Shown: positions 2,027 through 22,251 of the stretch, piece after piece
Layout of the letters: each line of letters starts with the position of its first letter
Position numbering within the stretch: position 1 is the stretch's first letter
Virus record (IMG/VR): IMGVR_UViG_3300027797_001606
Coordinates: 1-22,261 of that record
Origin: a virus
DNA length: 22,261 nt
Direction: 5' to 3' (one strand)
Translations under genes and position numbers: made by a program
Notes under the pieces: model-generated
The model's input: only the letters and a program-made list of their open reading frames with translations
What the model was told of the DNA's origin: nothing
Databases searched by the model: none

Positions 2027-2304
2027 GCGGCCTCCAACATGTTGGCGGGCACCTTCCACAGTACGACACCGTCTTTGACTGTGACATACTTGATGGCAAC
2101 CTTGGTCACTGTGCCTGTCACAGTAACACCACGTTTGGTGCTGTGAAACTTCACTGTGTCACCTTTGGTGAACTCACGAATTTTTACAGAGCGAAGCTGG
2201 GCACGAGCATACAGCACCGCATCGTTGATGCTGGTCAGTTGGTCGTTTGTAAAATTACCAAACATGATGGCAGAATTGATTTGTTGAATTGAGAGTTGTT
2301 CCAT
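2023..2304 (-). CDS. small hypothetical protein with KOW/SH3-like C-terminal half
   Basis: 93 residues from the ATG at 2304, preceded by GGAG nine bases upstream; a TTG 15 bases earlier is less likely. The N-terminal half is helical (SIQQINSAIMFGNFTNDQLTSIN). The C-terminal half reads as alternating beta strands (FTKGDTVKFHSTKRGVTVTG, then VTKVAIKYVTVKDG), the pattern of a small beta-barrel such as KOW or SH3-like domains that often bind nucleic acid. This is a fold guess from the hydrophobic pattern only. It begins two bases after the upstream stop at 2307 and overlaps the next gene by four bases, so it sits inside a small-gene operon. Confidence 0.75.
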   Translation of the reverse strand: MEQLSIQQINSAIMFGNFTNDQLTSINDAVLYARAQLRSVKIREFTKGDTVKFHSTKRGVTVTGTVTKVAIKYVTVKDGVVLWKVPANMLEAA

Positions 2305-2306
2305 GA

Positions 2307-2579
2307 TTAATTGCTCCAAAAAGATTCGCTAGAGGGTGAACAGAAGTAAGGCGTATCATAACGTTCCTGGTATGTCTTACCAGTCATCATGTTGCGTTTG
2401 GTAACCCAAGTCTCATGGGGTTCCACAATGAAACCCAATTTTGTTTTGGATTCAATTACAGCACGGATATAGGCTCTGGTAACAGGGGCAAATTCTTCTT
2501 TGGCAACAAGACGCTTGCCTTCTTTGACCCGCTTGTCAGATTTGTAAAGTTCTAATGTGTATTCAACCAGTGCAGTCAT
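2307..2579 (-). CDS. 90-residue hypothetical protein
   Basis: Start chosen at the ATG at 2579, where AAAAAAGGAGCC supplies a strong Shine-Dalgarno seven bases upstream and the promoter at 2610-2638 would give a leader of about 24 bases. The frame stays open to a TTG at 2642, but that lies upstream of the predicted transcription start. The protein is basic and mixed alpha/beta (TALVEYTLELYKSDKRVKEG, KLGFIVEPHETWVTKRN), with no recognisable catalytic motif, signal or membrane span. It is the first gene after a near-consensus sigma-70 promoter, so early expression by host RNA polymerase is likely. I do not recognise the family. Confidence 0.75.
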   Translation of the reverse strand: MTALVEYTLELYKSDKRVKEGKRLVAKEEFAPVTRAYIRAVIESKTKLGFIVEPHETWVTKRNMMTGKTYQERYDTPYFCSPSSESFWSN

Positions 2580-2596: not shown

Positions 2597-2740
2597 CTAC
2601 AATAACTCTATTATATACAAAACGGAATTTTTGGTCAACCAAAATGTAATCACTGCAATCACCAGCAGTTCTGCCACAGTGAATTTAGTACTATAGTATA
2701 CCCGTAGTACTTGTTGTTTAAGTTGGTTTACCCGGTTCAT
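2597..2740 (-). CDS. 47-residue small membrane protein, apparently leaderless
   Basis: The frame runs from the ATG at 2740 to TAG at 2597. The -10 box of the promoter at 2747-2775 ends six bases before the ATG, so the expected transcription start coincides with the start codon and no Shine-Dalgarno is present: a leaderless mRNA if real. The product has a basic N-terminus (MNRVNQLKQQVLRVYY), then a hydrophobic stretch (VAELLVIAVITFWL) and a hydrophobic tail (VLYIIELL), which fits one membrane helix. The second promoter (2610-2638) lies inside this frame. Alternatively this is an untranslated leader that happens to be open. Confidence 0.45.
   Translation of the reverse strand: MNRVNQLKQQVLRVYYSTKFTVAELLVIAVITFWLTKNSVLYIIELL
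2610..2638 (-). promoter_or_regulatory. sigma-70 promoter P2
   Basis: On the minus strand: TTGACC (2633-2638), a 17-base spacer and TATAAT (2610-2615). The -10 box is perfect, the -35 matches 5 of 6, and the spacing is optimal. Predicted start near 2603 gives a short leader with a GGAG Shine-Dalgarno for the gene at 2579. It lies inside the 47-residue frame. Confidence 0.8.
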
Positions 2741-2795
2741 GCTGTTATTATAGCATTTGGGCAATTATTGGTCAAGTACTACCTAAGTACTACTT
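2686..2795. repeat. four TAGTACT repeats flanking promoter P1
   Basis: The heptamer TAGTACT occurs four times in about 110 bases: at 2686-2692 and 2705-2711 on the plus strand and at 2775-2781 and 2786-2792 on the minus strand. The inner copies extend to a 10-base inverted repeat (GTAGTACTTG at 2704-2713 against CAAGTACTAC at 2773-2782). The outermost copy sits in a dyad, AAGTA-N-TACTT, at 2785-2795. Two copies lie upstream of and against the -35 box and two lie downstream of the start point, an arrangement typical of operators. No cognate regulator is identified in the window. Confidence 0.55.
2747..2775 (-). promoter_or_regulatory. sigma-70 promoter P1
   Basis: TTGACC (2770-2775), 17-base spacer, TATAAT (2747-2752) on the minus strand. 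It is the same quality as P2 and begins with the same nine bases, TTGACCAA followed by A/T. It would start transcription at or next to the ATG at 2740. A TAGTACT repeat abuts the -35 box, so regulation by a bound protein is plausible. Confidence 0.78.
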
Positions 2796-16695: not shown

Positions 16696-17579
16696 TATCT
16701 ACGTGCTCGTCCCAGTGCGGCTCCAGCTGGTGCGGGTTCTTCAGCATCCATTTCGGCCCCCAAGTCAGCACCCACATCTGCGCCCACATCTGCGCCCACT
16801 TCGGCGCCCACATCTGCGCCCATTTCGGCGCCAGCAACTGGAGCGGCACCTGGCATGCCGCTGGCAGCCATGCTGGTGTCTAATGCAGCTGGTTGACCAG
16901 TCACAACACCCAAGGCTGTTTCCAGTTGTTGTTTGGAACCTTGCAAGTTTTGCACAAGGCCTTGCAATGCCGCAGTGACATCACTGTTGAATTGTGTGGC
17001 TTGTTCAATGCCAATTTGATTACGGATTGAGTCAACCAAGGCAGGTAGTTCTTTGAATTGCATCTCTGTTGTGTCTTCCAACATTGATTGCATTTTGTCT
17101 ACCATGTCTTGTGCAGCCAACACAACTTGTGCCTGCTGGACTTCTGATTCTTTCAACAATTGATATGCTCTACGCAAGCGACTTTCAGCCGTCAAGGTAG
17201 CTTGGGCATTGATTAATTCTTGTTCTTCAGGGGAAGGCTTCTGGCCTTTTGACAGTTTGTCTTTGGCTGCCTTGAGCTTGGCAGCAGCAGCTGGGTCTGT
17301 CATTGCCATGGCACCTGCAGGAGGTGCCATTTCTTCGCTCACACGGTGAGCCAGTGCCTGTTCCATCATGACCAGTTTCAAGTAAGCAGGGTTGCGTTCA
17401 CTGGTATGCCGACTTGAGCTGCGCTGATGTTCAGCAATCACACCACGCACACGCTTCAGCATGATCTGGGCTTCGCGCACTGTAATCTTGTTCACAGGCA
17501 TCTTGGTGCCGAAGTAACTTTCAAATACTTTAGCTACTTGGCGGCTTTTTTTTGGCGTGGCCAGTTCGGTTAATTTCAT
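16695..17579 (-). CDS. helical, scaffold-like protein with GAxx C-terminal repeats
   Basis: 294 residues from the ATG at 17579 (ATGA overlap with the previous gene and AAGAGGA upstream). Residues 1-85 are basic and helical. Residues 95-225 are rich in Ala, Glu, Gln and Lys with coiled-coil spacing (AAKLKAAKDKLSKGQK, RLRRAYQLLKESEVQQAQ). Residues 250-278 are a tandem GADV/GAEV/GADL repeat, acidic and flexible, before AEEPAPAGAALGRARR. The basic-helical-acidic low-complexity layout resembles prohead core or scaffold proteins of T4-like phages, which is why I propose that role; there is no diagnostic motif. The repeat is coded by 12-base units and may vary in number between relatives. Confidence 0.75.
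   Translation of the reverse strand: MKLTELATPKKSRQVAKVFESYFGTKMPVNKITVREAQIMLKRVRGVIAEHQRSSSRHTSERNPAYLKLVMMEQALAHRVSEEMAPPAGAMAMTDPAAAAKLKAAKDKLSKGQKPSPEEQELINAQATLTAESRLRRAYQLLKESEVQQAQVVLAAQDMVDKMQSMLEDTTEMQFKELPALVDSIRNQIGIEQATQFNSDVTAALQGLVQNLQGSKQQLETALGVVTGQPAALDTSMAASGMPGAAPVAGAEMGADVGAEVGADVGADVGADLGAEMDAEEPAPAGAALGRARR
16755..16832 (-). repeat. 12-base tandem repeat coding GAxx units
   Basis: Degenerate in-frame repeat with plus-strand core gcgcccacatct, coding GAEM, GADV, GAEV, GADV, GADV, GADL and GAEM. It lies inside the scaffold-like gene. The unit length is a multiple of three, so copy-number change would keep the frame. Confidence 0.8.
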
Positions 17580-21289: not shown

Positions 21290-22251
21290 AGTTGTCTAAT
21301 TTTTTTCAATAGTGTTCTGCTGGGATCAAAATTGCGACTCCAAGTTAAAGATTCGTTGAGTTTACTTGCCAGTGCCAATTTTATAGCAGCTTGGGTATCT
21401 GTACCCGGTGGTACTTTGGCCGCCAATGCCGCAGCCTGTTGTGGTGAATAACCAAGTCTTACCAGTGCTTGTTCTACATCGGATGGCTGTTGAGCAGCTG
21501 GGGGTTGTTGAGCAGCTGGAGGTTGTTGAGCAGCTGGAGGCTGCTGTGCCGGGGCAGGGGGCGGAGTTTGCTCAACAGACGATCCCAGCACGAATCGTCT
21601 ATATTCCTGCACATGAGCCGGATTGCTGGGGTCAAAAGGTTGGCCTAACACAGTAATTCCGCCATTGGCATTTATTTTTACAGTGTCTCTACCGCCTCTA
21701 CCAGCGGTGTTTTTAAAAGCCAAGTAGGCTGCACGATGTTCTGGATTGGCACCATTGTAGGGTTTTCCACCTATGGTTATTTTGCCCACCAGTCGTTGAT
21801 GCTCTGGATTGGCAGCATCATAAGGTACACCATCTATGGTTATTTTGCCTGTGCTGTCTGTGTATACTTCGTTCTTGGCATCCTTGGGCAGCAAATAACC
21901 CAAGCCCACCTTGTTGGCATTGTATGCCTGCATTGCATTGGCAATAGCGCCACCTATGTTGGCTTTTCTTCCTTGTGGCGCACCCATTTTGACCTTGCCG
22001 GCAGCTGCCAGTTCTGAATCACTTCCTGTGGCAGCTGCAGGCGCCGTTGCCGGTAGCTTACTAAACGGAGCCATCTGATCTTGTGCTATTTTTGCGGCAG
22101 CCGCTTGTTTAGCTTGTCTGATGTCTGCTGGAGTTTGAGCAGTGGTCACACTAGGCGCAGCCGGTGCTGGATCAATTCCTGTGGCAGGACTTGCTACAGG
22201 AGCACCTGTAGTTGACATGTTTGTCGGCATCATAGCAGGTTGCGCAGGCAT
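21286..22251 (-). CDS. low-complexity protein with NPxH repeats and a UBA/RuvA-C-like segment, possibly 5'-truncated
   Basis: At least 321 residues. The frame stays open through 22261, so the ATG at 22251 may be internal. Residues 1-90 are Pro/Ala/Thr-rich linker. Residues 136-222 hold three copies of a unit of the form KITIxGxPYxxxNPEHxxxY. Residues 235-257 are QQPPAA repeats. Residues 258-297 (DVEQALVRLGYSPQQAAALA, then KLALASKL) match the three-helix UBA-like pattern of the RuvA C-terminal domain: paired helices around an LGY turn. A basic tail, SRNFDPSRTLLKKIRQL, follows. Its role is unknown; the modular, flexible design suggests a scaffold or adaptor. Translation is coupled to the nucleotidyltransferase gene. 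Confidence 0.72.
   Translation of the reverse strand: MPAQPAMMPTNMSTTGAPVASPATGIDPAPAAPSVTTAQTPADIRQAKQAAAAKIAQDQMAPFSKLPATAPAAATGSDSELAAAGKVKMGAPQGRKANIGGAIANAMQAYNANKVGLGYLLPKDAKNEVYTDSTGKITIDGVPYDAANPEHQRLVGKITIGGKPYNGANPEHRAAYLAFKNTAGRGGRDTVKINANGGITVLGQPFDPSNPAHVQEYRRFVLGSSVEQTPPPAPAQQPPAAQQPPAAQQPPAAQQPSDVEQALVRLGYSPQQAAALAAKVPPGTDTQAAIKLALASKLNESLTWSRNFDPSRTLLKKIRQL
21489..21542 (-). repeat. three 18-base tandem repeats (QQPPAA units)
   Basis: Near-identical 18-base units at 21489-21506, 21507-21524 and 21525-21542 on the plus strand (gttgagcagctggaggtt), coding the Pro/Gln linker before the UBA-like segment. A fourth, diverged unit follows toward 21560. Confidence 0.9.
21731..21849 (-). 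repeat. two 56-base imperfect direct repeats coding NPEH units
   Basis: 21731-21786 and 21794-21849 share ctctggattggca-type and ctatggttattttgcc cores and code KITIDGVPYDAANPEH and KITIGGKPYNGANPEH. A more diverged third copy lies around 21605-21655 (GQPFDPSNPAH). This is intragenic duplication of a protein module rather than a mobile element. Confidence 0.8.

Follow-up and report, generated by a model that had tools for sequence, protein, structure and literature searches.

The stretch of DNA analyzed here (hereafter the window) spans 22,261 bases and comprises an entire IMG/VR virus record; the locus under study is a unit on its minus strand in which a 47-codon gene is followed by a gene for a 91-residue product (Table 1). 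The 47-residue product carries a hydrophobic stretch and gave zero matches to Pfam and PHROG, while the 91-residue product matched these collections only at E values of 0.05 to 0.1. Upstream of P1, the two outer copies of a repeated heptamer form, when read on the minus strand, a direct repeat that recurs every 11 bp (GTAGTACTTAG GTAGTACTTGACC) and whose second copy extends into the −35 box. Each copy is at the same time the core of an odd dyad, AAAGTA-N-TACTTT, the two dyads having their centres 11 bp apart and abutting the −35 of a near-consensus promoter, and the farther unit is placed directly after the stop codon of the preceding gene. Zero units of this kind were found upstream of P2. 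In many relatives, at the place corresponding to window positions 2304-2330, a separate promoter with GTAATACTTGAGTATTAC serves the 93-residue gene, and the unit there contains the stop codon of the preceding gene; in the window this promoter is absent and the gene follows directly.

Table 1. Coordinates of the genes, promoters and candidate sites at the locus, as positions in the window.
Feature	Positions	Strand	Remarks
Operator unit 1 (candidate), GTAGTAC	2776..2782	-	Abuts the −35 box; 13-bp dyad at about 2773-2785
Operator unit 2 (candidate), GTAGTAC	2787..2793	-	11 bp further upstream; 13-bp dyad at about 2784-2796
Promoter P1	2747..2775	-	TTGACC (2775-2770), 17-base spacer, TATAAT (2752-2747), TG before the −10; same core in relatives
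47-codon gene	2597..2740	-	ATG at 2740, 6 bases after the −10; no room for a Shine-Dalgarno sequence
Third heptamer, GTACTAC	2704..2710	-	Inside the 47-codon gene; GTA-YTA-C codons in 12/12 close orthologues; candidate site
Fourth heptamer, TAGTACTA	2686..2693		Inside the 47-codon gene; not a GTANTAC dyad; 4/12 close orthologues; probably incidental
Promoter P2	2610..2638	-	TTGACC, 17 bases, TATAAT; within the end of the 47-codon gene; at the same place in several relatives
Next gene in the unit, 91 aa	2307..2579	-	Downstream of P1 and P2

The original prediction had drawn attention to four copies of TAGTACT within about 110 bases around P1, and this cluster is real. The heptamer occurs at 2686 and 2705 on the plus strand and at 2775 and 2786 on the minus strand, and nowhere else in the window. 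Given that the copy at 2686 overlaps its own complement at 2687 (minus strand), five matches were counted, compared with a mean of 1.10 in shuffles of the window, and a count of five or more was reached in 0 of 100 shuffles. TAGTACT is also the sole 7-mer of the window with four copies in 110 bases and zero elsewhere; five other 7-mers have four copies in 110 bases, but with 2 to 7 further copies each. As had been proposed, the copy at 2775 abuts the −35 box of P1, and the 10-base inverted repeat ascribed to the inner pair is present at 2704-2713 and 2773-2782. Repeated 7-mer clusters were also seen at 16771-16830 and 21488-21575, in coding sequence, where they come from repetitive peptide stretches.

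Because the window is the entire IMG/VR record, the rest-of-genome check was made in relatives. The 47-codon gene is conserved: it has 12 close orthologues, the window included, as well as 3 that are more distant. The copy at 2704-2710 appears as GTA-CTA-C or GTA-TTA-C, representing Val-Leu codons, in all of the close orthologues, and the copy at 2686 is TAGTACT in 4 of them and TAT-CGT-ACT in the other 8. At P1, the full pair was present in 8 of the 12, a single exact unit in 3 and none in 1. Among the 7 close orthologues found by protein, the pair was present in 3, one exact unit in 3 and none in 1, which is a point against reading the pair as an operator. The three distant orthologues have the promoter and zero GTANTAC. 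The comparison with relatives indicates that the unit is the odd dyad GTA-N-TAC with A/T flanks and not the heptamer. The four heptamers are therefore a mixture in which the outer and inner pairs are separate matters, and only the outer pair can be assigned with confidence to the element, because the inner copies are Val-Leu codons in one case and, in the other, a heptamer outside the GTANTAC form and restricted to 4/12 close orthologues.

The P1 transcript probably begins at the ATG of the conserved 47-codon gene as a leaderless message, a start that had been predicted and that agrees with the 6-base distance between the −10 and the ATG. The same distance was found at 7 other of 47 site-bearing promoters, and its constancy among the close orthologues is partly by construction since that comparison required TATAAT 5 to 7 bases before the ATG. 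It had further been proposed that all four sites act jointly, with looping, on a small autoregulated unit. Although the four heptamers in 110 bases and the GTANTAC form of the third copy in every close orthologue would suit such an arrangement, we consider it extremely improbable, as the fourth copy is not a GTANTAC dyad and is poorly kept, the third is explained by its codons and a regulator gene was recognised nowhere in the unit. What stands of the proposed small regulated unit is a regulatory site cluster at P1; the four copies as one bracket do not, and looping via the inner pair goes with them, both inner copies lying in coding sequence. Autoregulation is likewise not borne out, since no DNA-binding gene was recognised in the unit and the element precedes many unrelated genes of related phages.

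When viral contigs were scanned with the 19-base form of the tandem element, AGTACTTNNGTAGTACTTGAC, 22 stretches were returned, and the reversed pattern returned 0. These stretches precede several different genes, some of them common between stretches, and each has, by eye, a −10 of at least 5/6 at 16 to 17 bases. When ten of the 22 records were searched whole with up to 3 mismatches, all ten matched and the reversed control gave 0 in every one. Nine motif-chosen records were then taken in stretches, giving 785,903 bases and 161 promoters called as TTGAC with at least 5/6 of TATAAT, a definition by which weak promoters are missed. Within 62 bases upstream of these promoters lay 41 of the 66 occurrences of GTAGTACT, compared with 0.74 expected. 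Related forms behaved similarly in the same records, with 39/64 occurrences upstream of promoters for GTAATACT, 21/60 for GTATTACT and 24/44 for GTACTACT, and the reversed controls gave 0/76 (TCATGATG) and 1/27 (TCATAATG). A total of 47 promoters in the motif-chosen records carried GTANTACT. What these forms share is the unit GTA-N-TAC; among 70 units read, A precedes it in 54 and T follows it in 58.

A second sample was chosen by protein, using 80 of 291 loci from relatives of a neighbouring 92-residue protein, of which 47 loci with 179 promoters were left after the removal of 4 already known by motif and of near-duplicates. In this sample 152 of 236 occurrences of GTANTACT fell directly upstream of promoters, compared with 5.3 expected. 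They came from 36 of the 47 loci, and the reversed form TCATNATG lay upstream in 0 of 171. Among larger related records, most of them reached through another protein, the exact tandem GTANTAC-N4-GTANTAC was present in 14/26, with a reversed control of 0/26, although 14/26 overstates independence because in some cases a single phage is represented by more than one record (G026 and G027 have coordinates in common). Its absence from the other 12 is a point against the operator reading. From the opposite direction, 56 of 59 non-redundant tandem pairs (counted without those less than 140 bases from an end) adjoin a promoter with at least 5/6 in both boxes; one of the remaining pairs has a −35 of 4 of 6 and two have weak matches only. 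By comparison, random positions in the pair-holding sources had a near-consensus promoter adjoining in 982 of 20,000 cases (4.9%).

A further sample was chosen by the element GTAATACTTGAGTATTAC itself and comprised 74 loci from at least 120 stretches; 77 occurrences were reduced to 52 by dropping 5 at edges and by de-duplication. A near-consensus promoter accompanied 39 of the 52, 7 had a −35 of 4 of 6, and 6 had none or a weak one. Of these six, L371 combines a poor −35 with a perfect extended −10, and the other five look like one kind of gene end: L336, L345, L355, L360 and L388 have GTAATACTCAAGTATTAC at gene ends beside a AGTACTCATTTT-like stretch, without a sigma-70 promoter of this type, which is perhaps another use of the site. 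The element is thus concentrated at promoters beyond chance, as would be expected of a repressor operator. The check on the site elsewhere and in relatives was in this respect favourable; in the other respect it was not, since the dyad at P1 is degenerate or absent in L114 and L165-L167 with the promoter intact.

The architecture of the element was compared at 218 non-redundant promoters from the motif-chosen and protein-chosen sets. GTANTAC was found at 53 of them, and six control dyads were found at 2 to 5 and never paired. The distance between neighbouring units was 11 bp in 28 of 35 cases and 14 bp in 5. The commonest positions relative to the −35 were −18 (23), −7 (18), −29 (7), −17 (6) and −28 (5); further ones fell around −40 and −51. 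An unprompted scan for palindromic dyads ranked AAGTA-N-TACTT first in G001, G002, G022 and G028 and AGTA-N-TACT second in G031. In these five records, with the counts in the order in which they are listed, GTANTAC lay upstream of 12/47, 9/38, 9/37, 14/64 and 11/44 promoters; the corresponding counts were 4/73 in G012, 1/71 in G030 and 0/43 in G011.

Elements of this kind, directly after stop codons and in some cases before a terminator-like hairpin, raise the possibility that the repeat works as RNA, as a hairpin ending the preceding transcript (a terminator or processing site), and not as a DNA operator. The mean folding energy of the element, −5.5 kcal/mol compared with −1.5 kcal/mol in mononucleotide shuffles, agrees with this model and is a point against the operator reading. 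However, the two units have complementary middle bases in 7 of 28 pairs (6.9 expected), the unit closest to the promoter adjoins the −35 at a constant position, and an Rfam search of the window gave zero matches; we regard the RNA model as very unlikely.

In a different model, the tandem site would be bound by an activator contacting polymerase both from about −40 and from a position at least one helical turn farther upstream. The positions listed above, which are roughly one helical turn apart, would suit an activator as well as a repressor, and L371, with its element at a poor −35 and a perfect extended −10, resembles an activator-dependent promoter; both are points against a repressor. By contrast, site-bearing cores are no weaker than site-less ones (TATAAT in 36/38 compared with 30/41, and TG in 38/38 compared with 31/41), 0 of the 59 pairs served a promoter with a −35 of at most 3/6 and a perfect extended −10, and the far sites scatter over −36 to −47. 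The cores are strong unaided, the exceptions being the 7 of 52 with a −35 of 4 of 6 and the poorer L371. Repression is likelier than a needed activator because promoters needing a factor could have weaker boxes, and we regard the activator model as unlikely.

We favor, with a probability of about one half, the reading that the element is a tandem operator recognized by a DNA-binding protein that most likely represses strong phage promoters. Since the centres are 11 bp apart, the two dyads would lie on one face of the DNA; a regulator dimer would probably sit on each dyad, with the pair bound cooperatively, and the regulator occupying the unit next to the −35 would obstruct RNA polymerase and so keep it off P1. 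In each of the five large site-bearing records, this protein would control a set of 9 to 14 promoters out of 37 to 64 called, and the 47-residue gene would be one among many genes under its control. The site-bearing promoters may be early, because they have strong cores and mostly short genes of unknown function behind them.

The regulator itself would be phage-encoded, because the 19-base form is nearly absent from bacterial genomes: in 257 billion bacterial and archaeal bases it matched once, compared with about 1.9 matches expected by chance according to our own arithmetic. In the search for the motif in host chromosomes, the sole genome-contig match lies before groEL of a Nonlabens assembly, with no −10 nearby, and it was set aside. 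This result also bears on the idea that the site belongs to a host regulator borrowed or evaded by the phages, with site-less relatives infecting other hosts, a model compatible with repression or activation. That only some of the related records have the element (14/26) and that none of the phage gene families compared separates site-bearing from site-less records cleanly would both be accommodated by a host protein; against it stands the exact 19-base form occurring in host sequence no more often than chance, and we judge a host origin improbable.

Several candidates for a phage-encoded regulator were considered and rejected. A 61-residue protein of ribbon-helix-helix appearance and a 58-residue helix-turn-helix (HTH) protein lie near two operators, but among G001-G009, the window and L006-L028 they were confined to G001. 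An HTH_39 winged-helix protein has 278 viral-contig relatives, of which 80 were kept, and these lead also to tandem-less records such as G011, G012 and G030. A ParB-like family and a 110-residue protein (an antisense reading) looked specific, but each was present in 2 of 3 site-less records, and further queries taken from G022, G031 and G028 added nothing beyond that ParB-like family and a single antisense frame. The member of this family at L048 (G001 67079-68246) and its relatives form a highly divergent ParB-like or DGQHR-like group that matched nothing in PHROG, with one copy found per record having it.

Tandem operators of the Arc and MetJ type, in which one ribbon-helix-helix dimer binds each sub-site and binding is cooperative, are alike in having short palindromic sub-sites about one turn apart at a promoter, as in the 11-bp spacing reported above. 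They differ in sequence, and the RHH_1 profile found a ribbon-helix-helix gene in 0 of 7 records at E values up to 10. The early promoters of T4 are comparable in that near-consensus sigma-70 promoters occur here in phages with T4-type replication genes, the replicative helicase and clamp loader of G001 matching PHROGs at 5e-71 and 1.9e-75; T4, however, modifies the polymerase and is not known to place a repeated operator at its early promoters. The PhoB box shares the 11-bp period, being a direct repeat of directional CTGTCAT-type units. It differs in that here A, and not T, precedes GTANTAC in 54/70, the units are symmetric and the −35 is intact. A Pho-box-like repeat, CTGTAATACTACTGTAAC, does occur before the pstS-like gene of G001 (L047) and is not the GTANTAC element. 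This locus (G001 40843-43335) places a porin-like and a pstS-like gene in a phage record, and the first 75 residues of the porin gave no useful match in the PDB as a host clue. The nearest printed motif found is the LexA box of Xanthomonadales, TTAGTArwawTACTAa (PMC2248561), yet its spacing differs. The two share AGTA and TACT half-sites, and as printed there the LexA box has four bases between them compared with one here, other flanks, and one dyad instead of a tandem (PMC2248561).

Among named phages, megablast of the window gave zero matches and the neighbouring 92-residue protein gave none. A composite promoter query returned 24 records with partial matches only, none covering more than 80% of the query. 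The best match of NrdB was to Xanthomonas phage X1 (58.7%), of which a 41,083-base stretch has 6 occurrences of GTANTACT, 3 of the reversed form and no tandem. A description of the element was absent from the searchable literature, as queried with the motif letters and general terms in a body of text in which most subscription journals were outside the search.

In G012 and G011, related records without GTANTAC pairs, GTTG-N8-CAAC marks 4 promoters each (L284-L300 and L315-L326), and at the corresponding place relatives such as L111-L113 carry GTTGC-N6-GCAAC; this is possibly a swapped operator. It is conceivable, though we hold it as doubtful, that a clade of large T4-type phages has its own regulator of about ten strong promoters acting via tandem GTANTAC operators, and that in relatives this operator has been exchanged for another (TGTTG-N8-CAACA, for example) with the promoter core kept, amounting to an immunity-like specificity system. 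Phages of this type are not known to have one. If this were true, strong promoters in phages with T4-type replication genes would be under operator control, and the element would mark co-switched genes in many uncultured phage fragments and would point to host-takeover and counter-defence genes among proteins without a family. In archaeal viruses, a regulatory sequence has reportedly already been used as bait for anti-defence genes (PMC11065993).

Promoters of this class share a conserved spacer, AATAATTNCCNAANTGC, and have CAT some 6 bases beyond the −10; behind it comes either an ATG start or a leader with AAAAGGAG.
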